DNA from: Devosia sp. Root436
GTDB taxonomy: Bacteria; Pseudomonadota; Alphaproteobacteria; Rhizobiales; Devosiaceae
Direction: 5' to 3'
DNA length: 64,000 bases
NCBI RefSeq assembly: GCF_001426345.1
Contig: NZ_LMEM01000011.1
Span: 1-64,000 of the forward strand
Shown: one piece after another, positions 2,875 through 33,250 of the stretch
Layout of the letters: every line of letters starts with the position of its first letter
Position numbering within the stretch: position 1 is the first letter of the stretch
Program-made: the position numbers and the translations under genes
The notes under the pieces: generated by a model
What the model saw: the letters and a program-made list of their open reading frames with translations, nothing else
Told to the model about the DNA's origin: nothing
The model's database searches: none

Positions 2875-3632
2875 TTGGGCTGCATGCGGATGGCACCATC
2901 GAGCCGGATGACTTCGCCGTTGAGATACTGGTTCTCGATGGCGAAGCGGACGGCGTCGGCGAATTCGGCGGGGTCGCCCAGCCGCGACGGATAGGGGATG
3001 GCCGCCGCGAGGCTCTGCTGGGCGTCCTCGGGGAGATTGTGCAGCAGGGGCGTGAGGAAGATGCCGGGCGCGATAGTGTTCACGCGGATGCCGAAGCGGG
3101 CGAATTCGCGCGCCGCGGGCAGGGCCATGGAGACGATGCCACCCTTGGAGGCGGCATAGGCGGCCTGGCCGATCTGGCCCTCGAAGGCGGCGACCGAGGC
3201 GGTGTTGACGATAACGCCCCGGGCCTTGTCGTCACGCTCGGGGAGCGTGGCCATGCGCTCGGCGGCGAGGCGCAGCATGTTGAACGTGCCGACGAGGTTC
3301 ACGCGGATGACCGTTTCGAAGTCGGCTAAAGGCATGGTGCCCGCCTTGCCGAGGATGCGGGAGGCCACACCGATGCCGGCGCAGTTGACGAGGATGCGCA
3401 GGCCATCGGCGGCCTTGTTGGCGGTGTCGAGCGCGGCAGCAGCATCGGCTTCACTGGTGACGTCGCCGGCCAGGGCCACGCCGCCGATCTCGGTGGCGAT
3501 GGCGTGGGCCGCGTCGCGGTTGCGGTCGAATACATGGACCACCGCACCGCGCCGTGCCAGCAGCCGCGCCGTGGCCGCGCCGAGACCGGAGCCGCCGCCG
3601 GTCACCAATGCGCTGGAACCCTCGATCTTCAT
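2871..3632 (-). CDS. SDR-family 3-hydroxyacyl-CoA dehydrogenase
   Basis: A 253-residue short-chain dehydrogenase with the cofactor motif TGGGSGLGAATA near residue 11, NCAGIG, and the active-site YAASKGG. It most resembles HSD10-type 3-hydroxyacyl-CoA dehydrogenases, including the insertion carrying MATLPERDDKARGVIVNTASVAAFEGQ before the catalytic tyrosine. It is expected to oxidise 3-hydroxy-3-(4-hydroxyphenyl)propionyl-CoA to the beta-keto thioester. It overlaps fcs and the acyl-CoA dehydrogenase by 4 bases on either side. A GGGAGG about 7 bases before the ATG supports the start. Its presence in place of vanillin dehydrogenase points to the deacetylative route rather than the retro-aldol lyase route. 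Confidence 0.85.
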   Translation of the reverse strand: MKIEGSSALVTGGGSGLGAATARLLARRGAVVHVFDRNRDAAHAIATEIGGVALAGDVTSEADAAAALDTANKAADGLRILVNCAGIGVASRILGKAGTMPLADFETVIRVNLVGTFNMLRLAAERMATLPERDDKARGVIVNTASVAAFEGQIGQAAYAASKGGIVSMALPAAREFARFGIRVNTIAPGIFLTPLLHNLPEDAQQSLAAAIPYPSRLGDPAEFADAVRFAIENQYLNGEVIRLDGAIRMQPK

Positions 3633-5482
3633 GCGGCAGCCTCCCTGCTGATCTGGATCACATCGGCAGCGCCGGCATAGAGCGCAGCGACCAGGTCGGC
3701 GCGTTGCGCCAGCACGGCGCGCTGGTTGATCGAGCCCTTGTCGGTAACCTCGCCGCGCTCGAAGCGCAGCGGTTCGCTCATCAGCAATATGCGGCGGATG
3801 CGCGTGGCCGAGCCGGTCGCTTCGCGCTGATGGGCGGCCAGCCGTTCCGCCAGGGCCGCGCGGACCTTGGGATGGGCGAGAACCGCGGCATCATCAAGGT
3901 CCGGCTCGCCCGCCAGTTCGCGCAAAACGGGCATGAAGGGCACGACCAGCGCGCCCAGTTCGGGCCGGTTTTCGCCAGTGATGACGGCATCGCGGATGAG
4001 GCCGCCGAACTGGTTGACCAGTTGTGCGCGCAACACGCCGACGGCGACCCAGGTGCCGGTATCGAGCTTGAAATTCTCGGCGGTGCGGCCATCGAAATAG
4101 AAACCGGCACGCGGATCGCCCGGGGTGGCGAACTTCACTGCGTCGCCGATGCGGTAGAACCCTTCATCATCGAAGGCTTCGGCCGTCAGTTTCGGGTTTT
4201 TCCAGTAGCCCGGGGTGACATTGGGACCCTTCAGGCGCAGCTCGTATTTATCGCCCACGGGCACGAGCTTCACGGAGACGCCCTGGGAAGGGATGCCGAC
4301 ATTGCCCGGGCCCGATTGCGGCTCGGTGCAATAGAGGGCGAAGGGGCCGGTTTCGGTGGAACCCAGGCCGGTGGTCATGGGCACGCGTTCGCCCAGGGTC
4401 TGTTCGGAGAGCTCCACCAAAGCGTCCCAGCTATGCTGGGCCAGGCCCGCGCCGGCATACATCAGCATATTGAGGCGGGAGAAGAAATTGTGGCGCAGCT
4501 CGGCGTCGTCGCGCATGGCGCCAACAAGCATTTCGAAGCCGGCGGGGACGTTGAAATACCAGGTGGGGGCCACTTCGCGCAGGTTGGCGATGGTCTGGCC
4601 GATCAGCGACGGCGATGGCTTGCCGCGGTCGATATAATAGCTGCCGCCATTGTAGATGGTGAGGTTAAACACCTTGTTGCCGCTGGCGGTGTGGTTCCAC
4701 GGCGCCCAATCGACCAGGACGGGCGGCTCGTCGCGCATGAAGGCGTAGCAATCGGCGATCATTTCCTGGTTGGAACAGAGCATGCGCTGCGTCTGGATCA
4801 CCGCCTTGGGCGCGCCAGTCGTGCCCGAGGTGAAGAGGAATTTGGCGACCGTATCCGGGCCGGTCGTGGCGAAAGCGGCATCGACGGCGGGAGCCGGTTC
4901 GGTCGCGGCAATGGATTGGAACGTGTAGGTGTTGGCGCGGCCCACGGGCAGATTGCGCTGGGCGGAAAGCGCCATGTCGGGGCCGAAGACGGCATCGACG
5001 GCGGGGGCAAAATTGGCGCCGTCATCGACAAAGACCATGCCAGGCGCGATCTGGCCAGCAATCTCGCGCAGCTTGGCATAGCCAGACGAGGCGCTGGCAT
5101 AGGCCGGGGCGATGGCAGCCGAGGGTATGCCGGCATGCTGGGCGCCCAGCGCCATCAGTGCATGTTCGATGGAGTTTTCCGAGAGGATGACCAGCGGGTG
5201 CTCAGCGGAGAGGCCGGCAGCGAGGAGGAACGTGCCGATGCGGCGCACCTTGTCGAGCGCCTGGGCATAGGTGACGGTGTACCAGGGGCCGGTGCCCTGG
5301 CGGTCGGCCATCCAGACGCGGTCGGGGGCGGCAGTGGCCCAGTGGATCAGCCGCTCGTTGAGTCGCGCCGGATACGGGCCAAGCTTGTCCTCGCGCCAGA
5401 TGATATATTCGCCATTCGCCCGTTCCTCCCAGGCGATACGTGGCGACCACAGCTTGACGCTGCGCGCAGCCTTTGCGGCCAT
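3629..5482 (-). CDS. fcs: Feruloyl-CoA synthetase
   Basis: A 617-residue adenylate-forming (ANL) enzyme. The AMP-binding P-loop LFTSGTTGAPKAVIQT lies near residues 215-230, followed by TGLGSTETGP and the hinge region near GFYFDGRTAENFKLDTG. The length and the N-terminal EYIIWREDKLGPYP match feruloyl/coumaroyl-CoA synthetases rather than general long-chain ligases. It activates ferulate, p-coumarate or caffeate with ATP and CoA as the entry step. A strong GGAGGGGAAGG precedes the ATG. It is the first gene of the leftward operon fcs-SDR-acd and is divergent from the crotonase gene, with a candidate repressor operator between them. Confidence 0.88.
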   Translation of the reverse strand: MAAKAARSVKLWSPRIAWEERANGEYIIWREDKLGPYPARLNERLIHWATAAPDRVWMADRQGTGPWYTVTYAQALDKVRRIGTFLLAAGLSAEHPLVILSENSIEHALMALGAQHAGIPSAAIAPAYASASSGYAKLREIAGQIAPGMVFVDDGANFAPAVDAVFGPDMALSAQRNLPVGRANTYTFQSIAATEPAPAVDAAFATTGPDTVAKFLFTSGTTGAPKAVIQTQRMLCSNQEMIADCYAFMRDEPPVLVDWAPWNHTASGNKVFNLTIYNGGSYYIDRGKPSPSLIGQTIANLREVAPTWYFNVPAGFEMLVGAMRDDAELRHNFFSRLNMLMYAGAGLAQHSWDALVELSEQTLGERVPMTTGLGSTETGPFALYCTEPQSGPGNVGIPSQGVSVKLVPVGDKYELRLKGPNVTPGYWKNPKLTAEAFDDEGFYRIGDAVKFATPGDPRAGFYFDGRTAENFKLDTGTWVAVGVLRAQLVNQFGGLIRDAVITGENRPELGALVVPFMPVLRELAGEPDLDDAAVLAHPKVRAALAERLAAHQREATGSATRIRRILLMSEPLRFERGEVTDKGSINQRAVLAQRADLVAALYAGAADVIQISREAAA

Positions 5483-5515
5483 GACCTTCCCCTCCGGTCA
5501 GTCGGTTGCAAATTT

Positions 5516-5544
5516 GTTTACAAGGAAACTATCTACCTGTAAAC
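5516..5544. promoter_or_regulatory. Inverted repeat in fcs/crotonase divergent promoter
   Basis: GTTTACA at 5516-5522 and TGTAAAC at 5538-5544 form a perfect inverted repeat with a 15-base spacer, so the half-sites are 22 bases apart (about two helical turns). It lies between the divergent starts of fcs and the crotonase in an otherwise AT-rich stretch. A likely ligand is the HcaR-like MarR protein encoded at 463-954, which is inference. Confidence 0.55.
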
Positions 5545-5575
5545 GATCAAACATTGCTTTCCGGGGGACATGGCA

Positions 5576-6367
5576 ATGACCGCAGAAACCAGCGCTTTCG
5601 TGACCTATGAGCTCAGGGGCAAGGTGGCCCATATCGGGCTCAACCGGCCCGAAAAACGCAATGCCATGAACGACCGCTTCGTCGAGATGCTGGCCGATTC
5701 CATTGCCCGCGCCGAGCACGAGGCCAAGGCTGTGGTGCTGTTCGGGCATGGCGAGCATTTCTGCGCCGGGCTCGACCTGGCCGAGCATGTGGAAAAGACA
5801 CCGTTCGAAGGCGTGCGCGGCTCGCGCCGCTGGCACGCGGTGACCGCGGGCATGCAGCATGGCACCATTCCCTGGGTTTCGGCTTTGCATGGCGGGGTGA
5901 TCGGCGGCGGCATGGAACTGGCGGCGGCCACCCATATCCGCGTGGCGGATCGCTCGGCGTTTTTCGCGCTGCCCGAAGGCCAGCGCGGCATTTTCGTCGG
6001 CGGGGGCGGCTCGGTGCGCATCGCACGGCTGCTTGGCGTGGCGCGGATGAGCGACATGATGCTGACCGGGCGGGTGATCGCGCCCGACGAGGCCGAGCGC
6101 TGGAACCTGGTGCAATATGTGGTGGAGACCGGCACGGCGCGCGACCATGCGCACAAGCTGGCCGAGACCATGGCCACCAATGCCGAGATTTCCAATTACG
6201 CCATCATCAACGCGCTGCCGCGCATCCAGGACATGGCCAAGGAAGACGGGCTGTTCGTGGAATCGTTCATCGCCTCGTTCACGGCCACGAGCCCCGAGGC
6301 CGAGGAGCGGCTGCGGGCGTTCCTGGAGAAGCGCGTCGCGCGGATCAAGGCGCCGGACGCGGAATAG
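5576..6367 (+). CDS. Crotonase-family feruloyl/coumaroyl-CoA hydratase
   Basis: A 263-residue enoyl-CoA hydratase/isomerase-family protein. It has the first oxyanion-hole segment HFCAGLDLAEH (about residues 63-73), the second HGGVIGGGMELA, and an active-site glutamate candidate in LPEGQRGIFVGGGG. It should hydrate hydroxycinnamoyl-CoA to the 3-hydroxy thioester. Whether it also performs the retro-aldol lyase step to the aldehyde cannot be told from sequence, but no vanillin dehydrogenase is next to it and an SDR is. The second ATG (5576) is preferred to 5570 because GGGGGA ends 7 bases before it. Confidence 0.8.
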   Translation: MTAETSAFVTYELRGKVAHIGLNRPEKRNAMNDRFVEMLADSIARAEHEAKAVVLFGHGEHFCAGLDLAEHVEKTPFEGVRGSRRWHAVTAGMQHGTIPWVSALHGGVIGGGMELAAATHIRVADRSAFFALPEGQRGIFVGGGGSVRIARLLGVARMSDMMLTGRVIAPDEAERWNLVQYVVETGTARDHAHKLAETMATNAEISNYAIINALPRIQDMAKEDGLFVESFIASFTATSPEAEERLRAFLEKRVARIKAPDAE

Positions 6368-6585: not shown

Positions 6586-7998
6586 TTACCGCTTCTTGCT
6601 GCGCCAGCTGTCGGCGTAGTTTTCGCGAGCCTCGGCAGCATACGGCGTCGGGGAGACGCGGACGCGGATTTCGGCCTGCTTGTGGCGCTCGGTCGAGGTC
6701 TTCCTGGTGCCGCCATCGGGCTCGCCCCAGACCAGGGTGAGCACGTCGCCCACCTGGACATCGGCATTGACCACGCCGAGCGAGAGCATGCAGCGCTCGT
6801 TGTAGGAATAGCCGTTGAACATGGACATGCCGACTTGTCTGCCGTCGCGCAGCACCATGTCGGCACTGGTCGAGGCATAGTTGGGCTGTGGGAAGTCGAT
6901 CCACTTGTAGTGGTCTTCGCCAGGGCGGAAGGCCGAGGCGATGACATCGACGACATCCTCGGCATTCCACTCGAAGGTCACCTTCTTGCGATGGGTCTGG
7001 CCCTTCATTTTTTCGAGGGCGGCCTTGCCGACGAAATCGTCCTTTTTCCAGCCGATATAGAAGTCGTAGCCCAGCTCGAACGGATTGACGTAGTAATCCT
7101 CGATATTGTCCGAGACGAAGGAGCCGCCGATGGCCCCGATGGATTCGTAGCTGTCGGCCGCCAGCCAGTCGCGGTAGTCGGCCAGCATGCCGTCGCCGGT
7201 ATAGATGCCCGGCAGTGGCGAAGGAATCCAGCCCGATTCCAGCGTATTGGTGGAATAGGCGCGGCTGCCGCAGCGGACGAGGTCCACCTTGGCCTCGCGG
7301 GCGGCTTCGAGGATGCAATTGAGGATGTAGCTCTTGTCCTCGTATGGCCCCCAGATCTCCAGGCCCGGCGCGCCGGACATGCCGTGCCGCAGGGCGCGCA
7401 CTTTCTTGGACCCGACATTGATGAAATCGGTGTGGAAGAACTTGATGTCGGGGACCGGGCCACCGTGCATCTTCTCGAACACCTTCGTCGCCTCGGGACC
7501 CTGGATCTGGTAGCGATAATGGGTGCGCAGCACCCGTTCGCCCTCGGGCCGCGAGGTGGAGCGCGGGTCGTGCTTGACGCGGATGTTCCACTTGCCATTG
7601 GCGGCGCAGAACATCAGCCAGTTGCTGGTCGGCGCGCGGCCAACCAGCACGAACTTGTCCTGGCGCTCACGGAAAATGATGTGGTCGCCAATGACATGGC
7701 CGTTGGGCGTGACCGGCACGAAGTGCTTGGCGCGGTTCAGGTCAAAATTGGCGAAGGAATTGATGCCGTGATGGGAGAGGAATTTCTCCGCATCGGGGCC
7801 TTCGACCGTCAGCTCATCCATGTGGTGGGACTGGTCGAACAGCACGGCGGAATGGCGCCAGGCGGCCTGCTCGGTGCGCCAGTTGGTGAATTCAGGCGTC
7901 ACCACCGGGTATACATACATCCCGATCTGGGAATTGCGCAGCCGGCCCACAATGTCCGGATTTTCTCTCATGATGCCGCCAAGACTGGATTGCGCCAT
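6586..7998 (-). CDS. THF-dependent aromatic O-demethylase, LigM/DesA type
   Basis: A 470-residue protein of the GcvT/DmdA aminomethyltransferase superfamily. Features shared with LigM/DesA are FDQSHHMDELTVEGPDAEKF, RAYSTNTLESGWIPSPLPG, GSFVSDNIEDYYVNPFELGY and the C-terminal LVWGEPDGGTRK. LigM moves the methyl group of vanillate or 3-O-methylgallate to tetrahydrofolate, giving 5-methyl-THF plus protocatechuate or gallate; DesA does this with syringate. LigM is about 470 residues and DesA is longer, so length favours LigM. The start at 7998 follows GGAGGACATTGCG; an upstream in-frame extension has no family similarity. The context of pca genes, MetF-like, MetE-like and PurU genes supports methoxy-aromatic demethylation over DMSP demethylation (DmdA). 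Confidence 0.82.
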   Translation of the reverse strand: MAQSSLGGIMRENPDIVGRLRNSQIGMYVYPVVTPEFTNWRTEQAAWRHSAVLFDQSHHMDELTVEGPDAEKFLSHHGINSFANFDLNRAKHFVPVTPNGHVIGDHIIFRERQDKFVLVGRAPTSNWLMFCAANGKWNIRVKHDPRSTSRPEGERVLRTHYRYQIQGPEATKVFEKMHGGPVPDIKFFHTDFINVGSKKVRALRHGMSGAPGLEIWGPYEDKSYILNCILEAAREAKVDLVRCGSRAYSTNTLESGWIPSPLPGIYTGDGMLADYRDWLAADSYESIGAIGGSFVSDNIEDYYVNPFELGYDFYIGWKKDDFVGKAALEKMKGQTHRKKVTFEWNAEDVVDVIASAFRPGEDHYKWIDFPQPNYASTSADMVLRDGRQVGMSMFNGYSYNERCMLSLGVVNADVQVGDVLTLVWGEPDGGTRKTSTERHKQAEIRVRVSPTPYAAEARENYADSWRSKKR

Positions 7999-8027
7999 CG
8001 CAATGTCCTCCCATGTTCTTGCTATTA

Positions 8028-8037
8028 ATGTATACAT
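8028..8037. promoter_or_regulatory. TGTATACA operator upstream of the O-demethylase
   Basis: The perfect palindrome ATGTATACAT lies 30 bases upstream of the demethylase ATG. The identical 10-mer occurs before the MetF-like gene (14705-14714), and the 8-base core TGTATACA occurs before livJ (22011-22018). It probably overlaps the demethylase promoter. The likely ligand is the adjacent FCD-GntR regulator. Confidence 0.65.
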
Positions 8038-8165
8038 ATGTGCCGAAGGGGCGCGGGAATGCAAGCCGTTTTCACGGCGCAGGGGTGGGAAGATGGGGGA
8101 TTGTGGGGGCACTATGCCGCCACATACACCGCCCCCCTCAGGCTCTGCCAGATAGTGGGGCACTG

Positions 8166-8318
8166 CCCTTCTCCCTTGAGGGAGAAGGTGCCCGAAGGGC
8201 GGATGAGGGGTCCTGCGCTATCCACAATTGTCGAAGCAAGGGATGGCGCAGAACCCCTCACCCGGAAATCCGCTGGACGCGGATTTCCACCCATCTCCCT
8301 CAAGGGGCGAGGGGTGAG
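8166..8318. repeat. Large intergenic palindrome, cttctcccttgag class
   Basis: Left arm cttctcccttgagggagaag followed by cgaagggcggatgaggggt; right arm acccctcacccgg and then ctccctcaaggggcgaggggtg. The two ends are inverted and each contains its own hairpin. This mosaic element takes up most of the 352-base gap between the demethylase promoter and the GntR gene. Related copies are at 11960, 26196 and 35775. Confidence 0.75.
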
Positions 8319-8350: not shown

Positions 8351-9085
8351 CTAATGCCGGATCAGCGCTAACCCGGGAATCTTCTGCAGCAGGTCCAGGT
8401 CCTGGCTGAAGATGTATTCGAGATTACCCCGCGCGGTGCGGGCGTGTTCGCGGGCGATGAATTCGGCGCGGGCGCCTTCGCGGGCGGCGATGGCGTTGAG
8501 CATGGCGTGATGCTGCTCCTGCGCAGTGCGCAGCGAGCGGCGGAAGGCGGCGATTTCCATCTTGTTGGGCAGGAAAGCCGAGGGCGAGGCAAAGGGGAGC
8601 GCCGTGGCGCGCTCGACTTCGCGTCGCACGATCTCGCTGCCGGACAGACCGGCCAGTTCGAAATGGAAGGCGGCGTTGAGATCGGAATAGGCGTCGAAAT
8701 CGACGTCTTCCTCATTGGGGCCGAAACAGGCGTCGAGCCTGGTAACGATGGCCTGGATACTGGCCAGCGCCTCGGGCGCCACGCCGCGCTCGGCCGCCAG
8801 CCGCGCCGCCGTCCCCTCCAGCACGCCGCGCAATTCGATGGAATCGACCACGTCGGCATAGCCGAAGCGGCGCACCACGAAGCCGCCGCTGGGCAAGCGA
8901 TCGAGCAATCCCTCCTCGGCTAGGCGCGACAGCGCTTCGCGCACCGGGGTTCGCGAGATTTGCAGGGCCTCGGCCAGCGGCACCTCGAACAGGCGCATGC
9001 CGCCGGGCAGCTCGCCATTGATGATCTTTTCGCGCAGCTCGATGACGGCGCGGCGGCCGTGGGTGGCGACTTCACTGCTCTTCAT
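8351..9085 (-). CDS. FCD-domain GntR-family regulator
   Basis: A 244-residue regulator. The N-terminal winged helix (residues about 10-75) carries ISRTPVREALSRLAEEGLLDR, typical of GntR proteins. The C-terminal helical FCD ligand domain shows the expected acidic/histidine metal-site pattern, for example DLNAAFHFELA and EQHHAMLNAI. The start at 9085 follows AGGA at about 9 bases; an ATG 24 bases further upstream is also open. It sits between the O-demethylase and the ring-cleavage operon. VanR-type FCD regulators control vanillate demethylation in other bacteria. The repeated TGTATACA palindromes nearby have a size and symmetry suited to a GntR dimer. The effector is unknown. Confidence 0.82.
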   Translation of the reverse strand: MKSSEVATHGRRAVIELREKIINGELPGGMRLFEVPLAEALQISRTPVREALSRLAEEGLLDRLPSGGFVVRRFGYADVVDSIELRGVLEGTAARLAAERGVAPEALASIQAIVTRLDACFGPNEEDVDFDAYSDLNAAFHFELAGLSGSEIVRREVERATALPFASPSAFLPNKMEIAAFRRSLRTAQEQHHAMLNAIAAREGARAEFIAREHARTARGNLEYIFSQDLDLLQKIPGLALIRH

Positions 9086-9142
9086 GGGACGATTCCTGTT
9101 CCGCCGCATCCTATAGCAGCGCGTCGGGACGACGCGAAGAGG

Positions 9143-9994
9143 TCAGCCGCCCTGCCCGGTCCGCCGGGCCAGCACGTGCTGCACCGTTTCGGCCAGTGGG
9201 GCATCGGGCGCAGGCCCCGCCATGCCCATGGCATCCTGCACGGCGGCAATCTCGCGGGCCAGGCCGCCATGCAGGCCGAGCGCATCGAGCGTGGCGCCGC
9301 TTTCGCGCATTTCGGCGGCGCGGCGGTGGCCGTGGCGGGTGGTGCGCTCGAACTGGTAACTGGCAAAGCGCGACCAGTCGAGGCCGGGGAAAGACCCCGA
9401 AAGCGAGGCATAAATCTCGTCGAAACAGCCGGACGCCCTGGCAGCCAGCAGGGCTTCCACCGTGATGGCCTCGAGCCCCTTCACAAAGAGCGAGCGCACC
9501 ATCTTGATGGCGGTGGCCGCGCCGGGTTCGGCGCCGGCAAGGCTGGCGGAAAAACCCAGATCAAGCAATTCTTGCAGCAGGTTTGCCGCCTGTTTTCCTG
9601 CCAATAGCACGGGCGTTGCATGCTTTTTCGGGTGAACCGGGGCCATGACGGCCATATCGAGATAAAGCGCACCGGTCGCTTCGACGGCGGCTGCGGTTTC
9701 GCGCTTGCGATCCGGCGACACCGAATTGATGTCGATCAGCACCTGGCCCTGCCGCAAATGGGGCAATAAGGGCTCGACCGCCAGCAGGCTCTGGTCGGCG
9801 GTGACGGCGCTGAACACCCAGTCGGCTTCGGCGAGGCCCGATATGGCGACGGGGCTGGCGCCGCGCAGCTTCATGGCTTGGCGCATGGCGCCATCATCAC
9901 GGTCGAGCAGGATATCGTGGGCCAGCACCGCACGGGCCAGCCCATCGTGAAAGGCGCGCGCCGCCTCGCCATAACCCAGGAACCCGATTTTCAT
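9143..9994 (-). CDS. NAD(P)-dependent oxidoreductase with DUF1932 domain
   Basis: A 283-residue beta-hydroxyacid/6-phosphogluconate dehydrogenase-like protein. It has an N-terminal Rossmann motif IGFLGYGEAARAF, the substrate-loop-like DINSVSPDRKRE near residue 95, and the conserved lysine region GAATAIKMVRSLFVKG. The C-terminal helical part matches the DUF1932 type. The start at 9994 is chosen because AGGAGG lies about 9 bases upstream; an ATG 6 bases before it is too close to that site. It lies in the ring-cleavage operon between the GntR gene and purU. No step in the known gallate/4-oxalomesaconate pathway needs this family, so its job is open. Oxidation of a ring-cleavage or methoxylated intermediate is a guess. 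Confidence 0.72.
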   Translation of the reverse strand: MKIGFLGYGEAARAFHDGLARAVLAHDILLDRDDGAMRQAMKLRGASPVAISGLAEADWVFSAVTADQSLLAVEPLLPHLRQGQVLIDINSVSPDRKRETAAAVEATGALYLDMAVMAPVHPKKHATPVLLAGKQAANLLQELLDLGFSASLAGAEPGAATAIKMVRSLFVKGLEAITVEALLAARASGCFDEIYASLSGSFPGLDWSRFASYQFERTTRHGHRRAAEMRESGATLDALGLHGGLAREIAAVQDAMGMAGPAPDAPLAETVQHVLARRTGQGG

Positions 9995-10007
9995 GCGCAT
10001 CTGCCTC

Positions 10008-10856
10008 CTAGTGCTGGAACACCACGGTCTTGTGCTTGTTGACCAGCACGCGATCTTCCAGGTGCCAGGTGACGGCGCGGGCGAGAACGCGACGCTCGAT
10101 GTCGCGGCCCTTGCGCACGAGGTCCTCGGGCGTATCGGCGTGGCTGACCGGCTCCACATCCTGGCAGATGATCGGGCCTTCATCGAGATCGGCGGTGACA
10201 TAGTGGGCCGTGGCGCCGATCATCTTCACTCCGCGCTCATGGGCCTGGTGATAGGGCTTGGCGCCCTTGAAGCCGGGCAGGAAGGAATGGTGGATATTGA
10301 TGCAGCGGCCTTCGAGATAGGCCGAGAAATCGTCGGAGAGTATCTGCATGTAGCGCGCCAGCACCACCAGCTCGGCGCCGGTCTCTTCGATGATGGTCTT
10401 CACCCAGGCTTCCTGCTGTGCCTTGGTGTCCTTGCTGACCGGGCGATAGTGGTAGGGTATGCCCTCCATCAGCGTCAGGTTGAGCGCTTCGCGCGGATGG
10501 TTGCTGACGATGCCCACCGCCTCGATATTCAGCTCGCCGATCCGCATGCGATAGAGCAGGTCGCCCAGGCAGTGGTCGAATTTGGAGACGAGGAACAGCA
10601 CCTTGCGCTTCTGCCCGGCCGGGCGCAGCGAGAAATCGAGCTTGAGGCTGGTCACCTCCTCGGCGATGCCGGCGCGGAAATCGGCTTCCGGGGCCGCCAT
10701 GGAAAAGCCGACGCGCATGAAGAACATGCCGGTGGCCGGATCGTCGAATTGATGGGCCTCGTAGATATCGCCGCCATGGCGGGCGATGCGGGCGGCCACG
10801 GCCGCCACGATGCCGCTGCGATTGTTGCATCGCAGGGTGAGAATATAGCCGGTCAC
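10008..10856 (-). CDS. purU: Formyltetrahydrofolate deformylase
   Basis: A 282-residue protein with an N-terminal ACT domain ([30 protein letters not shown]) and a C-terminal formyl-transferase fold with [30 protein letters not shown] and the catalytic-type [17 protein letters not shown]. PurU hydrolyses 10-formyl-THF to formate and THF. A GTG start at 10856 is inferred because no in-frame ATG lies near the ACT domain start and the usual length is about 285. Its place among demethylation genes suggests it recycles THF loaded with methoxy-derived carbon once 5-methyl-THF has been oxidised to the formyl level. Confidence 0.9.
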
Positions 10857-10869
10857 TCTGGGTCTCGCC

Positions 10870-11928
10870 TCATGGGAAGATATGTCCGTCGAACAGTTTT
10901 CGCGCGGTCCGCAGCACGGCGGCATTGGTCACCGCGCCATCGCTGACAGCGACGATGACGCTCATTTCGCCGGTGGGATGTTCCACCGAGATCAGCTTTT
11001 CTTCACCATCGGGCACGCTGGCCAGTTCGGCCGCGGGGCCCGAGGACAGAAGGCACGCCGTGGCGACGCTGACCGCGCCGAGCACGCCGATGGCGTCGTG
11101 GCAGCGATGGGGGATGAAGGTGCGGGTGGCGATGGCGCCGCCTGCTGACGGGGCGGAGACCATGGTCATCTTGGGCACCGAGCTTTTGCTCACATCGCCC
11201 AGATTCATCAGCGGCCCGGCCTTGAGGCGGATGGCTTCGAGTTTTGCCCGCAGGGCGGCGTTGGCCTCCAGCGCCTCGGGCGTTTCCGTCCCCGATATGC
11301 CGAGATCGGCGGCCCGCATGACCACGCAGGGCATGCCATTGTCGATCAATGTGCAGGCGACGTCCTCGATCACATCCACCGCGTTGCCCGTAGGCAGCAG
11401 CGCGCCACAGCTCGAACCGGCGGTATCGGCGAAGGTGATGGGTATGGGCGCGGATGTGCCGGGCACGCCATCGATGCGCGCTTGGCCATCATAGCTGACG
11501 CGGCCGCCCGGCGTTTCGACGCGGGCTTCGGCCACCTGGCCGGTATTTTCCATGAAGATGCGGACCACGGTCTGGCCATCCTGCGCTGCCACCAGCCCGC
11601 GCTCGATGGCGAAGGGCCCGACCCCGGCAAGGATATTGCCGCAGTTCTGCGCGTCGGTGACCGTGGGCTGGTCGATGAAGACCTGCAGGAACAGGTAGTC
11701 GACGTCGATCCCTTCGCGGGTCGAGCGCTTCACCACCGCGACCTTGGAGGTCAGCGGATTGGCGCCACCCATGCCATCGATCTGGCGCGGATCCGGCGAG
11801 CCCATGACCTTGAGCAGGAAGGCGTCGCGGTCGGCCGGGTCGGCAGGCAGATCCGAGGCGAGGAAATAGCCGCCCTTGGAGGTGCCGCCGCGCATCCACA
11901 TGCAGGGGATGCCTGCGCTGGTGGACAT
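10870..11928 (-). CDS. galD: 4-oxalomesaconate tautomerase, PrpF family
   Basis: A 352-residue PrpF/diaminopimelate-epimerase-fold protein. Recognisable segments are the N-terminal [13 protein letters not shown], the cysteine-containing [14 protein letters not shown] near residue 95, and [15 protein letters not shown]. GalD interconverts the keto and enol tautomers of 4-oxalomesaconate in gallate degradation. Other PrpF proteins isomerise aconitates or act as the LigU isomerase, so the specific call depends on its neighbours. Immediate co-localisation with GalC/LigK-like aldolase and GalB-like hydratase genes makes the 4-oxalomesaconate assignment likely. GAGGATAACCTG precedes the ATG. A mosaic repeat separates it from the aldolase gene. 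Confidence 0.82.
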
Positions 11929-11959: not shown

Positions 11960-12119
11960 ACCCTAACCCTCGCTCCTTGAGGGAGAGGGTGATTTTTGCG
12001 GCGCTCAGCCGGAAAAACCGGGTGAGGGGTGCTGCGTCATCCCATGCCTTGATGCGTATGGATAGCGCGGCACCCCTCATCCGCCCTTCGGGCACCTTCT
12101 CCCTCAAGGGGAGAAGGGG
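11960..12119. repeat. Large intergenic palindrome, cttctcccttgag class
   Basis: Left arm around ctccttgagggagagggtg, then ccgggtgaggggtgctgcg; right arm cacccctcatccgcccttcg and accttctccctcaaggggag. The element sits inside the ring-cleavage operon between galC and galD, so it must be transcribed and could lower downstream expression or stabilise upstream mRNA. Confidence 0.75.
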
Positions 12120-12135: not shown

Positions 12136-12807
12136 CTAGACATATTTCAGTCCCTTCTCGGCCAGCTTCTCGCGCATCTTGTAGATGTCGAGGCCGAGTT
12201 CCCCGGCGGCGAGGCGTTGGCGCTTGCCTTCCTCGGCGGCTACGCGGGCCTCGGCCTTGTCAGCCACATCAGCGGCCTCGTCGCGGCGCACCACGCAGAC
12301 GCCGTCGTCATCGGCGACGATGACGTCGCCGGGATTGACCAGGGCGCCGGCGCAGACGATGGGGACGTTGATCGAGCCCAGGGTTTCCTTGACGGTGCCC
12401 TGGGCGAAGATGGCTTTCGACCAGACCGGGAATTGCATGGCGGTGAGATCGGCCACGTCGCGCACGCCGGCTTCGATGATGAGGCCCTTGCAACCGCGCG
12501 CCCTTGCCGAAGTGGCGAGCAGGTCGCCGAAATAGCCATCTTCGCTGGGGCTGGTCGGGGCCAGCACCATGATGTCGCCAGCGTGAAGCTGTTCGATGGC
12601 GACATGGACCATCCAGTTGTCGCCTGGCGGCGCGGAAATGGTCACCGCCGAAGCGGCGAGCCGGGCGCCGGAATAGATGGGGCGCATATAGGCGGCCAGC
12701 AGGCCCTTGCGACCCTGCGCCTCGTGCACGGTAGCGACGCCGCAGGCCGCCAGCCGGTCGATGACGGATTGTTCGGCCCGCGCGATATTCTGCACCACGA
12801 CGCTCAT
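12136..12807 (-). CDS. galC: 4-carboxy-4-hydroxy-2-oxoadipate aldolase, LigK/GalC type
   Basis: A 223-residue RraA-fold class II aldolase. It carries the family features [12 protein letters not shown] near the N terminus, [22 protein letters not shown], and the pyruvate/metal-binding stretch [14 protein letters not shown] followed by [11 protein letters not shown]. LigK/GalC cleaves 4-carboxy-4-hydroxy-2-oxoadipate to pyruvate and oxaloacetate, and many members also decarboxylate oxaloacetate. It abuts galB (the ends share one base) and precedes galD, the same functional set as the gal operon of Pseudomonas putida. The RraA fold is also used by non-enzymatic RNase inhibitors, but the gene set argues against that here. 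Confidence 0.87.
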
Positions 12808-13535
12808 CAGAGTTCATCCACGGTGCGCGGATAGATCGACTGGAAGCCCTCGGCATATCTGGCGGGGCGCCCGCCGGACTGCCCCCCCGAATTGCGGGTG
12901 AAGTGGTTGGCCCGGTTCTCGGCGACATTCTTGTAATAGTGCCAGAGGTGTTCCTGGCCAGCCATGGCCTGGATGGCGGCCCATTTCTTGTCCCAGACAT
13001 CCGATATGTCGAGGAACACGTCGGGCGTCCAGTTCATCTGCTCGGTCTGGTGCGGCTCGAACAGGTAGACCTGCGGCGCGCCGAGGATTTTCTGGCCCGG
13101 ATTGTGGCCCCAGGCCTGGGCAATGGCGCGGCATTCCAGGGTCCACTGCGACACATACATGTGGTCGGTGTTATAGGGATCGTATTTGGAATGGGTCATC
13201 ATAAAGCTGGGCTGGACTGCACGCATCACGTCCACCAGCCGGTCCTTGGCCTCGCGGGTCATTTCCAGCGGATAATCGCCGAGATCGAAGAACTGGATGT
13301 CGTGCACATCAAGCGCCTTGGCGGCATTCTCCGCCTCGACACGCCGGCCCGCCTTGACCTTGTCGAGCGTCATGCCCTCCTGCTTCCATAGCTTGGCGCT
13401 TTCGCCGCGCTCGCCATAGGAGAGGCACACCACGGTCACTTCGTAACCCCTGGCGGCATGGGCAGCGATGGCGCCGCCACAGCGCCAGACAAAGTCGGCG
13501 GAATGGGCGCTGACGATAAGGGCTGTTTTGGCCAT
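12807..13535 (-). CDS. galB: 4-oxalomesaconate hydratase, GalB type
   Basis: A 242-residue PIG-L/LmbE-fold zinc hydrolase homologue. The usual AHPDD metal motif appears as AHSADFVW at residues 10-17, the form seen in GalB proteins that work as hydratases instead of deacetylases. Further segments are [11 protein letters not shown] and [14 protein letters not shown], the latter with likely metal ligands. GalB adds water to 4-oxalomesaconate (keto form) to give 4-carboxy-4-hydroxy-2-oxoadipate, the substrate of the aldolase encoded next. The start at 13535 lies 5 bases from the dioxygenase stop codon, so the genes are tightly coupled. Confidence 0.85.
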
Positions 13536-13540
13536 GTCTT

Positions 13541-14500
13541 CTAGTCCTTCTTGCCCACCGGGGGCGTGCCATGGGTATGGAATGTCTCGATCGTCTTGAG
13601 GCCCCAGGCCTGGCCACGCTTCCGCTCGGTCTCGGTCCAGGTCACCGTCGGCCAATCCGGCCGCAGGATCAACCGTGCCCCGGCATTGGCCAGTTCGACG
13701 CGATTGCCCGCCGGCTCCCAGACATAAAGGAAGAAGGTGCCCTGGATGGCGTGCTTGTGCGGGCCGGTTTCGATATGGACGCCATTTTCGAGGAAGATAT
13801 CGGCGGCGCGCAAGATGTCCTCGCGCTGGTCCACGGCATAGGTGACGTGGTGGAAGCGGCCGGTCTCGCCGGTATGATCTTCCGAATAGGCGACGTCATA
13901 GCTCTTGTTGTTGACGGTGAACCAGCAGCCGCCCAGCCGTCCATTGTCGAGCAGGATTTCTTCGGTCACCCGGCTGCCCAGGGCCTGGGTCATGAAGGCC
14001 TTGATGGCGCGCACATCCTTGGCCAGCAGGTTGAAGTGGTCGAGCCGGCGGGGTGAGCAGCCGCGGCCATGATAGCGCTGGGCGATATTCTTGAGCGCCG
14101 GACGCTCCTCGGGCGGAGCTTCATAGACGCGCGTGTCGTAGTAGAGCTCGAAAATGTGGCCATCGGGGTCGGTGAAGCGGAAGGCGCGGCCGTGGCCCTC
14201 GTCGCCATCGACCCAGCCGATGGCGCAGCCCATGGCCTCGATCACCTTCACCCGCCGCTCCAGCGCCTCGGGCGATGACGTGCGGTAGCCGACATGGCCG
14301 ATGCCGGTGGTGTGGTGGCGGGTCAGCTTGAGCGTGTGAAACTCGTAATCGTCGAAGGCGCGCAGCCAGGCGACGCCATCTTCGAGCAGGCTGGCAGTGA
14401 GCCCATAGACGCGGGTGAAGAAATCGAGGCTCTCCTCGAACCGGTCGGTATAGAGCTCGATGTGACCGAGATGGGCGACGTCGAAACACGGCTCGGCCAT
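13541..14500 (-). CDS. Type I (VOC) extradiol ring-cleavage dioxygenase
   Basis: A 319-residue protein with two vicinal-oxygen-chelate domains (about 8-122 and 150-270), as in BphC/catechol 2,3-dioxygenases. Probable Fe(II) ligands are intact: His155 in RRLDHFNLL, His217/218 in GRFHHVTYAVD and Glu269 in GNRVELANAG. It is the first gene of the leftward operon dioxygenase-galB-galC-galD-purU-oxidoreductase. The downstream enzymes process 4-oxalomesaconate, which normally comes from gallate by type II enzymes (GalA, DesB, LigAB). A type I enzyme in this slot is unusual. Candidate substrates are gallate, 3-O-methylgallate or a related O-demethylated triol. GGAGG precedes the ATG at 14500. Confidence 0.78.
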   Translation of the reverse strand: MAEPCFDVAHLGHIELYTDRFEESLDFFTRVYGLTASLLEDGVAWLRAFDDYEFHTLKLTRHHTTGIGHVGYRTSSPEALERRVKVIEAMGCAIGWVDGDEGHGRAFRFTDPDGHIFELYYDTRVYEAPPEERPALKNIAQRYHGRGCSPRRLDHFNLLAKDVRAIKAFMTQALGSRVTEEILLDNGRLGGCWFTVNNKSYDVAYSEDHTGETGRFHHVTYAVDQREDILRAADIFLENGVHIETGPHKHAIQGTFFLYVWEPAGNRVELANAGARLILRPDWPTVTWTETERKRGQAWGLKTIETFHTHGTPPVGKKD

Positions 14501-14736: not shown

Positions 14737-15657
14737 ATGGACCTGCTGAATTTCGACATGCGTCCCAGTGCACGGCCCGCGCCAGCGCGACCGGCCGACA
14801 TGACCGGGGGCTGGTCCATCGAGGTCATGCCCCGCACCGCCGCCAAGATCGAGGACTTCCGGGCGCTGCTGCCAGCGGGCACGCGCGTCTATATCGCCCA
14901 CATTGCCGGCACCGATATCGAGGACATGGTGGCGACGGCGCGGCGGCTGCATGAGGACGGTTTTCCGGTGATGCCGCATTTCCCGGCGCGCGGTATTGCC
15001 GACAAGGCCATGCTGGACGAATGGATCAAGCGCTATCGCGACGAGGCGGGCGTTACCCAGGCGCTGCTGCTGGGCGGCGGCTATGCGACGCCGGTTGGCA
15101 CCTTCGAGAGTTCGATCCAGATGATCGAGACGGGGCTGTTCGACCATCACGGCTTTACCCATCTGCATGTGGCGGGCCACCCTGAGGGCAACAGGGATAT
15201 CGACCACGGCGGCAGCACCGCCAATGTCGACAGCGCCCTTCTCTACAAGCAGGATTTCGCCTCGCGTACCGATGCCGAAATGGCCATCGTCACCCAATTC
15301 GCTTTCGATACCCAATCGGTGACGGCATGGGCCGAGCGCATCGCCGATATGGGCGTGACCCTGCCCATTCATGCCGGCATTGCCGGGCCGGCCAAGCTGC
15401 AGACGCTGATCCAGTTCGCGCTCAGCTGTGGCGTCGGGCCGTCGATCGGCGTGCTGCACAAGCGGGCACGCGACCTGACCAAGCTGCTGATGCCCTATGA
15501 GCCGACCGAAGTGGTGGCCGGCTTTGCCGACTACAAGGCACGCCATCCCCATAGCCTCATCAGCCAATTGCATGTGTTCCCGCTGGGCGGCATCAAGACC
15601 GCTGCGGAATGGATGAAAAACCACGCGCCCGCCGAGGCGGAGCTGATCGCGACCTGA
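14737..15657 (+). CDS. Methylenetetrahydrofolate reductase family protein
   Basis: A 306-residue TIM-barrel protein of the MTHFR family, with ALLLGGGYATPVGTF near residue 115, HVAGHPEGNRDID near 145, and TQFAFDTQSVTAW followed by LPIHAGIAGPA, the expected flavin/folate-site strands. Its N-terminal SIEVMPRTAAKIEDF resembles the LigH/MetF-like group found beside aromatic demethylases. In a demethylation setting it would oxidise 5-methyl-THF from the O-demethylase back to 5,10-methylene-THF. AGGAGG ends 8 bases before the ATG. Its promoter carries the TGTATACA palindrome. It is probably not the housekeeping metF, because it lies in a catabolic cluster. Confidence 0.85.
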   Translation: MDLLNFDMRPSARPAPARPADMTGGWSIEVMPRTAAKIEDFRALLPAGTRVYIAHIAGTDIEDMVATARRLHEDGFPVMPHFPARGIADKAMLDEWIKRYRDEAGVTQALLLGGGYATPVGTFESSIQMIETGLFDHHGFTHLHVAGHPEGNRDIDHGGSTANVDSALLYKQDFASRTDAEMAIVTQFAFDTQSVTAWAERIADMGVTLPIHAGIAGPAKLQTLIQFALSCGVGPSIGVLHKRARDLTKLLMPYEPTEVVAGFADYKARHPHSLISQLHVFPLGGIKTAAEWMKNHAPAEAELIAT

Positions 15658-15671: not shown

Positions 15672-15771
15672 TCCCAACGAATAGGGCGCTGCGCGGCATC
15701 GAGACTTGCCGAGCAGGGCCTTGGCTGTGTACACGAAGACACGATCGCGCCGCTTTCCAGGAGACTTTTCG

Positions 15772-16896
15772 ATGACCATTGCCCGCCCGCCTTTCCGCGC
15801 CGACCACGTCGGCTCCCTGCTGCGCAATGCAGCGGTGAAAGAGGCGCGTCACCGCTTCCATGACGAGAAGGCCATTTCCCGCGAGGACCTGGCCGAAGTC
15901 GAGGATGCGGCGATCCGCGAGGCGATCAAGCTGCAGCAGGATGTCGGCCTGCCCGTGGTGACCGACGGCGAAATCCGCCGCTCGTTCTGGCACTACGATT
16001 TCATGGCCGAGCTCGATGGCTTCAAGTTCGTCGAGCGCGACGTGGCCACCGGCCATAACTTCAAGGGCGCCAATACGCGGCCGATCTTCCCCACCATTAC
16101 CGGCCCCGTCGATTTCCCGGCCGACCACCCGATGCTGGAGCATTTCAAGTTCGTGGCGGCCAATACCAGCGTCATGCCCAAGATCTCGATCCCCGGCCCG
16201 AGCTGCTGCCATTTCCGCGTGGCCAAGGACGATATCACCCACAAGCCCTATCACGACGATGTGGAACTGCTGTTCGCGGACCTGGCCAAGGCCTACAAGA
16301 AGGCGGTCAAGGGCTTCTACGATGCCGGCTGCCGGTATCTGCAGATGGACGACATCTTCTTCGCCTATCTGTGCGACCCCAAGATCCGCGCCGAGAAGCA
16401 GGCGCAGGGCCTCGATCCCGATTGGCTGATCGAGCAATATGCCAAGATGATGCATGACGCGATCGATGGGCGGCCGGACGACATGGTCATCGGCATGCAT
16501 ATGTGCCGGGGCAATTTCAAATCGACCTGGATCGCCGAAGGCGCCTATGACCCGGCGGCCGATGCCGTGTTCAACAAGACCGGCGTCGATATCTATTTCA
16601 TGGAATACGACACCGAACGCGCCGGCGGGCTCGATCCGCTGCGGCTTTTGCCCAAGGGCAACAAGCGCGTCATGCCCGGCTTCATCACCACCAAGACGGG
16701 CGAGCCGGAAAGCCTCGACAGCCTGCGCCGCAAGTTCGATGAAGCCGGCAAGTTCGCCGATATCGAGCAGATGGGCATCGCCCCGCAATGCGGGTTCTCG
16801 TCCACCGAGGAAGGCAATGCCATCACGGTGGACGACCAGAAGCGCAAGCTGGAGCTGGTGGTGAAGACGGCCGAGGCGATCTGGGGTTCGGTTTAG
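15772..16896 (+). CDS. Short MetE-like cobalamin-independent methyltransferase
   Basis: A 374-residue protein matching the C-terminal catalytic half of cobalamin-independent methionine synthase. It begins RADHVGSLLR and keeps the zinc ligands His243 and Cys245 (HMCRGN), Glu278 (FMEYD) and Cys340 (APQCGFSS). Full MetE is about 750 residues; this form lacks the N-terminal half. Such core proteins can take methyl groups from 5-methyl-THF to homocysteine or another thiol. Beside an O-demethylase and an MTHFR it offers a second outlet for the methoxy-derived methyl group. CCAGGAG precedes the ATG. The true acceptor is unknown. Confidence 0.82.
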   Translation: MTIARPPFRADHVGSLLRNAAVKEARHRFHDEKAISREDLAEVEDAAIREAIKLQQDVGLPVVTDGEIRRSFWHYDFMAELDGFKFVERDVATGHNFKGANTRPIFPTITGPVDFPADHPMLEHFKFVAANTSVMPKISIPGPSCCHFRVAKDDITHKPYHDDVELLFADLAKAYKKAVKGFYDAGCRYLQMDDIFFAYLCDPKIRAEKQAQGLDPDWLIEQYAKMMHDAIDGRPDDMVIGMHMCRGNFKSTWIAEGAYDPAADAVFNKTGVDIYFMEYDTERAGGLDPLRLLPKGNKRVMPGFITTKTGEPESLDSLRRKFDEAGKFADIEQMGIAPQCGFSSTEEGNAITVDDQKRKLELVVKTAEAIWGSV

Positions 16897-16925
16897 ACCC
16901 GTTTATCAGTGCCGCAGGGCGTGGG

Positions 16926-17053
16926 CTCCCTCTCCCCTGAGGGGAGAGGGTGGGGTGAGGGGTTCAGAGCCGCTTCAGGCACCATGCTCTGCACCAGCGC
17001 TGAACCCCTCACCCGGCCCTTCGGGCCGACCTCTCCCCTCAGGGGAGAGGTGA
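16926..17053. repeat. Large intergenic palindrome, ctctcccctcaggggagag class
   Basis: Left arm ctccctctcccctgagggga with gggtgaggggttcag; right arm ctgaacccctcacccgg and cgacctctcccctcagggg ending ggtgac. Near-identical copies are at 20527-20654 and 22128-22256. It lies between the convergent MetE-like (+) and livF (-) genes and could act as a transcription barrier. Confidence 0.8.
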
Positions 17054-17124
17054 CGTCAGATCCGCTCAATATGCGATGGCCGCCGTAAGGGACGTGAGCG
17101 AAGAAGCCTATAAACCAGCGCTCG

Positions 17125-20449: not shown

Positions 20450-20526
20450 GGAATTGGTCCTAGCGGATCATGCTGCTTGTTGGGCAATTCACTGCCCCGT
20501 TTTCTTTGCTTTCCCACCGGGCGTTG

Positions 20527-20654
20527 GCTCCCTCTCCCCTCAGAGGAGAGGGTGGGGTGAGGGGTTCAGTGCTTGTGTGAGCACGGTGCCCGACGCAGCG
20601 CTGAACCCCTCACCCGCCCCTTCGGGTCGACCTCTCCCCTGAGGGGAGAGGTGA
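20527..20654. repeat. Large intergenic palindrome, ctctcccctcaggggagag class
   Basis: Left arm ctccctctcccctcagagga with gtgaggggttcagtgct; right arm gctgaacccctcaccc and cgacctctcccctgagggga. It sits between livJ and livH inside the transporter operon. Ends and internal segments match the copies at 16926 and 22128. Confidence 0.8.
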
Positions 20655-20713
20655 CTTCGGCTTCCACTCCATAGGCGATCGCCCGCTTGAAAGAGAGCAG
20701 GTGCCGTCCCGTG

Positions 20714-22018: not shown

Positions 22019-22127
22019 CGATACCCGGCTTCGCCAAGGGAAAGCTGGGGGCTGCTTTATGCGCCAAGCCATTGAAACGGCTGGACGCTTACCCCGTACC
22101 AGACCCACCAGCTCCACCGAGCGCAGG

Positions 22128-22256
22128 CTCCCTCTCCCCTCAGGGGAGAGGGTGGGGTGAGGGGTTCAGTGCTGGTGAAGGCATCTTGGCCTCGCGCAAC
22201 GCTGAACCCCTCACCCGAGCCTTCGGGTCGACCTCTCCCCTGAGGGGAGAGGTGAC
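22128..22256. repeat. Large intergenic palindrome, ctctcccctcaggggagag class
   Basis: Left arm ctccctctcccctcagggga with gtgaggggttcagtgctgg; right arm gctgaacccctcacccgag and cgacctctcccctgagggga ending ggtgac. It lies between pcaF (end 22295) and the livJ promoter, so most of the 364-base gap is repeat plus promoter. Confidence 0.8.
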
Positions 22257-22294
22257 TTTGCTCCACTCCACGGACGATAATAACCCTCCCCTGC

Positions 22295-32425: not shown

Positions 32426-33250
32426 CTAGACCTTGTAGATGCGCTCGGCATTGCGGTGCAGCAGGCTGGCCTGTTCGTCGGCGCTGGCGGCCTTGATGAT
32501 CGCGTGCGTGGCCTCGACCCAATCGGTGAGGGTGCCGCCCGTGGTGGTGGCGACGGGGTGATCGGAGCCCCAGACCACGCGATCCCAGCCGAAACTCTCG
32601 ATCATGTGCTCGACATAGGGGCGGAGCGTTTCGGCGGTCCAGCCGGGGTCGCAGTGATTGACCAGGCCCGAGACCTTGCCGACGACATTGGGATTGCGGG
32701 CGATTTCGGCGATCGCGGCACGCCACGGATCGAGGCCGAGCCCGTTGATATCGGGGTTGCCGCAATGGTCGAGGATGAAGGTAACGTCGGGCGCCCGCTG
32801 CGCCAGCGCCACGCCGAGCCGGAGCTGGTCGGCGCGCAGGCAGAGATCGAAGCTCAGGTCATAATCGGGCAGGTGGCGGATGTTCTCGATGAAGAGGTCC
32901 GATTGGCTGAGTTCGTCGGGGGATTCGTGCAGGATGCGGCGGACGCCTTTGACGTGGGCGTGTTCGCTCAAGTGTTCGATCTGGTCGACGAAGTTCATGT
33001 GCTCGGGCCGGCAGGCGACGATGGCGCCGGCAATGCGCGGCAGGCCGAGCACGAATTCGGTCTCGCCCAGCATGTCGGCTTCGGCGACGTCGACCTCCAT
33101 GTGGAGGGCGGATTCCACGCCCAGCGGCACGGCCTCGGCGAAATAGGCCTCCAGGCTCCAGGGCCTGTTGAGCGCGGGTTTGCCGGCGAGCCAGGGATAG
33201 GCGAAGCGGTCGGGGTAGATGAGGTGCAGGTGGGTATCGAGGATGCGCAT
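32426..33250 (-). CDS. Amidohydrolase-family sugar lactonase, L-fuconolactonase-like
   Basis: A 274-residue TIM-barrel hydrolase of the COG3618 type. It has DTHLHLIYPDRFAYPW at residues 5-20, FILDHCGNPDI near residue 160, and the C-terminal VVWGSDHPVATTTGG with the conserved aspartate. Members hydrolyse L-fucono- and L-rhamnono-lactones or 2-pyrone-4,6-dicarboxylate. The nearby L-fuconate dehydratase and SDR support a fuconolactonase role, though a LigI-like lactonase cannot be excluded by eye. It lies 2 bases after the IclR gene and is co-transcribed with it. Confidence 0.75.
   Translation of the reverse strand: MRILDTHLHLIYPDRFAYPWLAGKPALNRPWSLEAYFAEAVPLGVESALHMEVDVAEADMLGETEFVLGLPRIAGAIVACRPEHMNFVDQIEHLSEHAHVKGVRRILHESPDELSQSDLFIENIRHLPDYDLSFDLCLRADQLRLGVALAQRAPDVTFILDHCGNPDINGLGLDPWRAAIAEIARNPNVVGKVSGLVNHCDPGWTAETLRPYVEHMIESFGWDRVVWGSDHPVATTTGGTLTDWVEATHAIIKAASADEQASLLHRNAERIYKV

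Follow-up and report, generated by a model that had tools for sequence, protein, structure and literature searches.

A VOC-family extradiol dioxygenase encoded with galBCD in Devosia sp. Root436 is a likely type I gallate dioxygenase

Cleavage of gallate opens the way into tannin breakdown and into one branch of syringyl-lignin catabolism. In Devosia sp. Root436, the lower-pathway genes galB, galC, and galD follow a gene for an extradiol dioxygenase of the VOC family, the only dioxygenase gene beside them; the lower pathway starts from 4-oxalomesaconate (OMA). The gallate dioxygenases GalA and DesB are placed in the LigB superfamily, or type II (PMC4250580, PMC3962378). A preliminary description of this DNA had proposed that the VOC enzyme, a type I protein, replaces them. 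Our analysis supports the proposal in part: both genomic checks, the search for type II genes and the survey of VOC-galBCD linkage, agree with it, while the cleavage itself is predicted from sequence. We consider the VOC gene a likely type I gallate dioxygenase gene and a nonorthologous replacement of GalA/DesB. Gallate is its probable main substrate (probability about 0.74), which it would convert to OMA in the role of the type II enzymes, and that the protein feeds galBCD in some way is very probable.

Gene content of the locus and the genome

The window, the whole stretch of 64,000 nucleotides analyzed here, comes from contig NZ_LMEM01000011.1 (assembly GCF_001426345.1; 3.92 Mb in 16 contigs, scored 99.97% complete). 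From position 14500 down to 6586, the minus strand carries, in order, the genes for the VOC protein, GalB, GalC, GalD, PurU, a DUF1932 protein, a GntR regulator, and LigM. The predicted gallate dioxygenase is an open reading frame of 319 amino acids (13541 to 14500), followed after 5 nt by galB (12807 to 13535), for a predicted 4-oxalomesaconate (KCH) hydratase of the PIG-L family. GalB has the PIG-L domain (PF02585, 90.2 bits) and reaches no NCBIfam cut-off; some of its homologues carry the database name 4-oxalomesaconate hydratase. galB overlaps by one base with galC (12136 to 12807), encoding 4-carboxy-4-hydroxy-2-oxoadipate aldolase (TIGR02798, 387.8 bits; cut-off, 304.5), and galD (10870 to 11928) encodes 4-oxalomesaconate tautomerase (NF033377, 542.9 bits; cut-off, 440). 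The order of dioxygenase, galB, galC, and galD first described is thus borne out by the reading frames from 14500 to 10870, with GalC and GalD past their NCBIfam cut-offs and GalB assigned by its PIG-L domain. As the 207-nt gap between galC and galD contains one arm of a dispersed repeat, we can only infer a common transcript for the four genes. Promoter and terminator scans returned 1 and 3 sites, respectively, versus 0.8 and 1.6 in shuffled sequence. The repeat belongs to an intergenic family with palindromic arms, found at 8173 to 8265, 12018 to 12110, 16907 to 17056, 20514 to 20657, and 22109 to 22258.

Further along the same strand lie purU (10008 to 10856, scanned as 10008 to 10925), for a formyltetrahydrofolate deformylase of one-carbon handling (TIGR00655, 325.4 bits; cut-off, 285.95); a DUF1932/NAD-binding dehydrogenase gene (9143 to 10000, scanned as 9143 to 10201; PF09130, 55.9 bits); a GntR-family (FCD) regulator gene (8351 to 9085, scanned as 8351 to 9109; PF00392 and PF07729); and ligM (6586 to 7998, scanned as 6586 to 8163). 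LigM, a tetrahydrofolate-dependent vanillate/3-O-methylgallate O-demethylase, scores 656.7 bits against NF047885 (cut-off, 580) and 573.1 bits against the DesA syringate O-demethylase model NF047633, below its cut-off of 800; elsewhere in the genome nothing exceeds 21.1 bits as a second LigM. Diverging from the VOC gene on the plus strand are two genes, one methylenetetrahydrofolate reductase-like (metF-like; 14800 to 15657, scanned as 14737 to 15657; 34.3 bits with TIGR00676, below the cut-off of 293.7, and no Pfam match), the other cobalamin-independent methionine synthase-like (metE-like; 15772 to 16896, scanned as 15706 to 16896; NF005085, 434.5 bits; cut-off, 313). Outside the operon, between 22295 and 32187, NCBIfam models identify the protocatechuate 3,4-cleavage branch (pcaF, pcaB, pcaG, pcaH, pcaD, and pobA). 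All exceed cut-offs, PcaB falling just under that of TIGR02426 and passing that of NF004631. On the other side, next to ligM, the region from 1273 to 6367 holds acyl-CoA dehydrogenase-like, SDR-like, acyl-CoA synthetase, and enoyl-CoA hydratase genes, which may form a module for hydroxycinnamate side chains.

The VOC gene is present in a single copy in the genome. That the window holds no LigAB/DesB-type gene had been noted before, along with the suggestion of a genome-wide search for LigAB, DesB, and GalA homologues; the observation extends to the entire 3.92-Mb genome, in which the type II domain of the LigB superfamily (PF02900) has no match, the same search being positive in 4 of 14 control genomes. 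OMA is described as arising by gallate cleavage, by hydrolysis of PDC, or by hydrolysis of CHMOD with isomerization (PMC12314914). A genome search with the LigI-like amidohydrolase of a related locus gave no close match, the best (25% identity, 21.4 bits) being a stretch at 32549 to 33238, in a protein whose own best NCBIfam match, at 81.8 bits and below cut-off, is fuconolactonase. A MgaC-like hydrolase query likewise found no close match in the genome (best, 28% identity). With no close gene of either kind, the PDC and CHMOD routes are without candidates here, so gallate cleavage is the best-fitting of the described sources of OMA. The label "LigI-like" is our own; the protein is a PF04909 amidohydrolase and scores best in NCBIfam with 4-sulfomuconolactone hydrolase (275.4 bits, below the cut-off of 500). 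"MgaC-like" and "MgaD/YciI-like" are likewise labels only, both proteins scoring below all NCBIfam cut-offs. In the LigAB sets discussed below, LigB scores above cut-off with a class III extradiol model, and the LigA-like partner reaches no cut-off.

Residues and fold of the VOC protein

The VOC protein matches PF00903 at residues 152 to 270 (86.1 bits) and PF22247, a catechol 2,3-dioxygenase-like N-terminal domain, at residues 69 to 121 (34.4 bits), both above cut-off. Neither PF02900 nor the NCBIfam gallate dioxygenase model NF009904 is among its Pfam and NCBIfam matches. With TIGR03211, the catechol 2,3-dioxygenase equivalog, it scores 306 bits, 14 below the cut-off of 320.2. Alignment to the ligands of homoprotocatechuate 2,3-dioxygenase, His155, His214, and Glu267, points to His155, His218, and Glu269 as the 2-His-1-Glu iron-ligand residues. 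All 110 translated rows, the copy from the window among them, keep the three residues. The earlier picture of a two-domain VOC enzyme with intact ligands is therefore upheld, with His218 singled out from the His217/218 given originally. Possible internal stops had been flagged in the VOC matches of genomes G278, G141, G110, G162, G183, and G206 of the order sample and G340 of the phylum sample; the aligned part of the 110 rows re-read, the G278, G141, and G110 loci included, contains no stop codon.

Structure prediction and comparison, also proposed at the outset, gave a concordant result. A model built from 56 sequences (pLDDT 85.3, with residues 300 to 306 and 316 to 319 below 50) matches solved type I extradiol dioxygenases and places the protein in their fold; a model from the single sequence reached a pLDDT of only 47.6 and was of no use.

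Most type I extradiol enzymes keep a catalytic His at a position where the VOC clade has Tyr. Tyr201, His248, and Arg276 are found in 136 of 136 rows at 59% identity or more, 14 of these rows being second readings of genes included before. The compared Thermus, Rhodococcus, and 9wgj sequences lack both Arg276 and His248, which so appear, at the level of these alignments, specific to the clade among the sequences compared. Tyr201 was considered as a gallate signature and dropped, since Geobacillus 9wgj also has it. The clade, a large one whose members go by either "catechol 2,3-dioxygenase" or "VOC family protein" in databases, may well constitute a second, independently evolved family of gallate dioxygenases, and we lean toward this view: it would have arisen inside the VOC superfamily from catechol 2,3-dioxygenase stock, Tyr having replaced the acid-base His and a newly gained Arg276 holding the gallate carboxylate. 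The clade in any case poses the question of how extradiol cleavage proceeds with Tyr in place of the usual catalytic His.

Recurrence of the VOC-gal linkage

To survey synteny, we inspected the loci of the best 80 of at least 574 confirmed relatives (74 to 90% identity), 11 of the 80 loci being shorter than 15 kb. The linkage recurs, as the preliminary description had thought worth surveying: 57 of these best 80 loci have all of galB, galC, and galD and 61 have at least one gal gene, leaving 19 at which none is seen, in a set that includes the 11 loci under 15 kb. The commonest orders among the best 80 are VOC-galB-galC-galD (41 loci) and galB-VOC-galC-galD (10 loci). Within the same best 80, ligM is nearby at 42 loci, a DUF1932 gene is present at 50 (at 47 alongside VOC and one or more gal genes), LigAB is nearby at 12, and a LigI-like gene is found at 5. 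On a tree, the "gal nearby" label requires 18 changes versus 23.3 in shuffles, the deepest placements lying on long branches, so the loci with gal genes nearby are not a single clade. Members of the VOC clade are found in alphaproteobacteria, in some Enterobacterales, and in one or more actinomycetes.

Co-occurrence was examined in two genome samples, with galD defined by NF033377 above its cut-off and VOC orthologues by about 70% identity or more. Among 247 genomes of the order, 59 have galD; it is present in 19 of 19 VOC genomes, which span 12 families and include the source genome, versus 40 of 228 others (Fisher P = 1.2e-13, a value that overstates independence because the genomes are related). 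In 15 of the 19, VOC and galD are at most 10 kb apart. The phylum sample (396 genomes) gives 13 of 13 VOC genomes at 70% identity or more, 5 of them shared with the order sample, versus 64 of 383 others (P = 2.4e-10, again overstating independence among related genomes). For more distant relatives, galD is found in only 8 of 16 genomes at 61 to 65% identity in the order sample and with 2 of 12 matches at 48 to 64% in the phylum sample. Three sequences stand outside the order-sample classes: in G206 the match is split, in G124 it is at 33%, and in G133 it is an additional copy at 45%.

Type II genes were scored with a 150-bit line for PF02900, a threshold chosen for this analysis and not a family cut-off, below which matches were left unsorted. 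By this measure, PF02900 reaches 150 bits in 4 of the 19 order-sample VOC genomes and stays below it or is absent in 15, with 5 having no match at all. Of 50 VOC genomes drawn from the best 80 loci, 16 have PF02900 above 150 bits, 24 have weaker matches only, and 10 have none; 9 of these 10 carry gal genes beside VOC. In the order sample, 19 of the 59 galD genomes have neither a VOC relative at 61% identity or more nor PF02900 at 150 bits or more, so that galD by itself requires neither enzyme; another source of OMA or another role for GalD is possible in these genomes. They include G053, G064, G199, and G264, the last two belonging to the same genus as the window.

Substrate, competing explanations, and known systems

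In the route that we propose, LigM would demethylate 3-O-methylgallate (3MGA) to gallate, and the VOC enzyme, whose substrate and product we infer, would cleave the ring next to the third hydroxyl to give OMA directly, with no aldehyde step. Tautomerization by GalD, hydration by GalB, and cleavage by GalC would then convert OMA to pyruvate and oxaloacetate. Vanillate would be demethylated by the same LigM to protocatechuate and pass to the pca genes of the window, with purU and the met-like genes handling the methyl carbon. This methoxy-aromatic setting, part of the original description, is appropriate to the 42 of the best 80 loci with ligM nearby; units with no annotated demethylase nearby also exist, making it one setting among several. 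On the pAt plasmid of a walnut-derived Agrobacterium tumefaciens, a tannase gene (PF07519, 437.9 bits) comes after galB-VOC-galC-galD, and no O-demethylase is annotated within the 19 kb around this unit. Tannases free gallate from tannins, and plants of the walnut family are reportedly rich in them. Among all loci examined, a tannase beside VOC-gal occurs only at this one. An A. vitis plasmid from grapevine has galB-VOC-galC-galD with a carboxylesterase in the tannase's place, and a Rhizobium plasmid and a Thioclava plasmid carry units of LysR, DUF1932, galB, VOC, galC, and galD with no demethylase annotated nearby. The DUF1932 gene is a member of all four plasmid units, from Agrobacterium, A. 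vitis, Rhizobium, and Thioclava.

The preliminary description had left the substrate as gallate or 3MGA, and of the two, gallate fits better, as judged from gene content. Were 3MGA the compound mainly cleaved, the product would be CHMOD or PDC, then hydrolyzed to OMA, an explanation favored by the LigM and one-carbon genes near many loci (ligM at 42 of the best 80) and by the LigI-like PF04909 amidohydrolase, by our own reading, near 5 of them. It is nevertheless unlikely: the Devosia genome has no close LigI-like or MgaC-like gene, LigM would itself use up 3MGA, and the walnut Agrobacterium unit ends in a tannase. Moreover, 12 of the best 80 loci hold, besides VOC-galBCD, a separate LigA-LigB-hydrolase-YciI-like set resembling the 3MGA genes of Pseudomonas sp. 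NGC7, although the gene-by-gene matching of this set to MgaAB, MgaC, and MgaD is by analogy and should be taken as presumptive. Gallate as the substrate has points against it too: PF02900 above 150 bits in 16 of 50 VOC genomes, LigAB nearby at 12 of the best 80 loci and no gal gene seen at 19, the lower share of galD among more distant relatives, the galD genomes with neither enzyme, the single tannase locus, and the catechol 2,3-dioxygenase name of the nearest solved relative.

The near miss of the TIGR03211 cut-off, together with solved relatives that act on catechols and relatives in Geobacillus and Thermus, could instead suggest a conventional catechol or alkylcatechol 2,3-dioxygenase whose linkage to galBCD is incidental. 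The invariable presence of galD with the VOC orthologues (19/19 in the order and 13/13 in the phylum) makes this very unlikely, and no hydroxymuconic-semialdehyde pathway is named among the gene families of the best 80 loci or the 10 operon-region proteins; in contrast, the Thermus locus has dmpG and an acetaldehyde dehydrogenase gene adjoining its dioxygenase gene. We give still less credence to a protocatechuate 4,5-dioxygenase whose semialdehyde product is oxidized by the DUF1932 enzyme en route to OMA. It would account for the DUF1932 gene at the 47 of the best 80 loci that have it together with VOC and one or more gal genes, gallate catabolism, to our knowledge, requiring no oxidoreductase, but the route via PDC needs LigI, for which the genome has no close gene, and pcaGH in the same window takes protocatechuate.

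Two kinds of more distant loci deserve mention. In L172, L173, and L176, relatives at 63 to 64% identity adjoin galB-like, galC-like, and LigI-like genes and a gene for a protein of 282 to 283 amino acids, possibly akin to 4,5-dihydroxyphthalate decarboxylase; the copy scanned, that of L172, has no Pfam or NCBIfam match. On a Roseomonas gilardii plasmid (L197), a relative at 62% identity shares its gene run with a Rieske oxygenase of the VanA type, a reductase of the VanB type, a class III extradiol dioxygenase, and a hydrolase, so that type I and type II ring-cleavage genes occur together.

Among type I enzymes (catechol 2,3-dioxygenases, homoprotocatechuate 2,3-dioxygenase, and AphC), the Devosia protein is set apart by its galBCD setting, its score below the TIGR03211 cut-off, and Tyr201, His248, and Arg276. 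The closest solved sequence, 9wgj from Geobacillus (51.6% identity), shares Tyr201 and has Ser for His248 and Tyr for Arg276. The 9wgj entry is deposited as "Catechol 1,2-dioxygenase," while an identical database protein, of the VOC family, is named catechol 2,3-dioxygenase of Geobacillus zalihae. The syringate pathway of Pseudomonas sp. NGC7 comprises VanA1B1, MgaAB, MgaC, MgaD, and GalDBC (PMC12314914). The Devosia genes resemble it in the galBCD lower pathway, as do 12 of the best 80 loci in their LigAB/hydrolase/YciI-like set. NGC7 differs in using VanAB for demethylation and then the two-subunit MgaAB on 3MGA (PMC12314914), whereas Devosia has LigM and a type I enzyme and no PF02900 gene in its genome.

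We found no type I gallate dioxygenase in the open-access literature, a search outside which preprints and most subscription papers fall; reaction and fold are each known, and it is their combination that we did not find described there. Surveys seek LigB-superfamily genes at the gallate step, the gallate tally of the NGC7 study, for instance, taking in only desB, ligAB, and galA (PMC12314914). If the clade cleaves gallate, many alphaproteobacteria have been overlooked, its database names are misleading, and a second kind of gallate dioxygenase would be available for lignin conversion. GalA of Pseudomonas putida KT2440 and DesB of Sphingobium SYK-6 would share with the Devosia enzyme the predicted reaction from gallate to OMA and the same GalB/GalC/GalD lower pathway (PMC12314914). 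Those proteins belong to the LigB superfamily, whereas the Devosia protein has VOC domains and no PF02900, a domain missing from its genome altogether; gallate cleavage would then have arisen in two unrelated folds.
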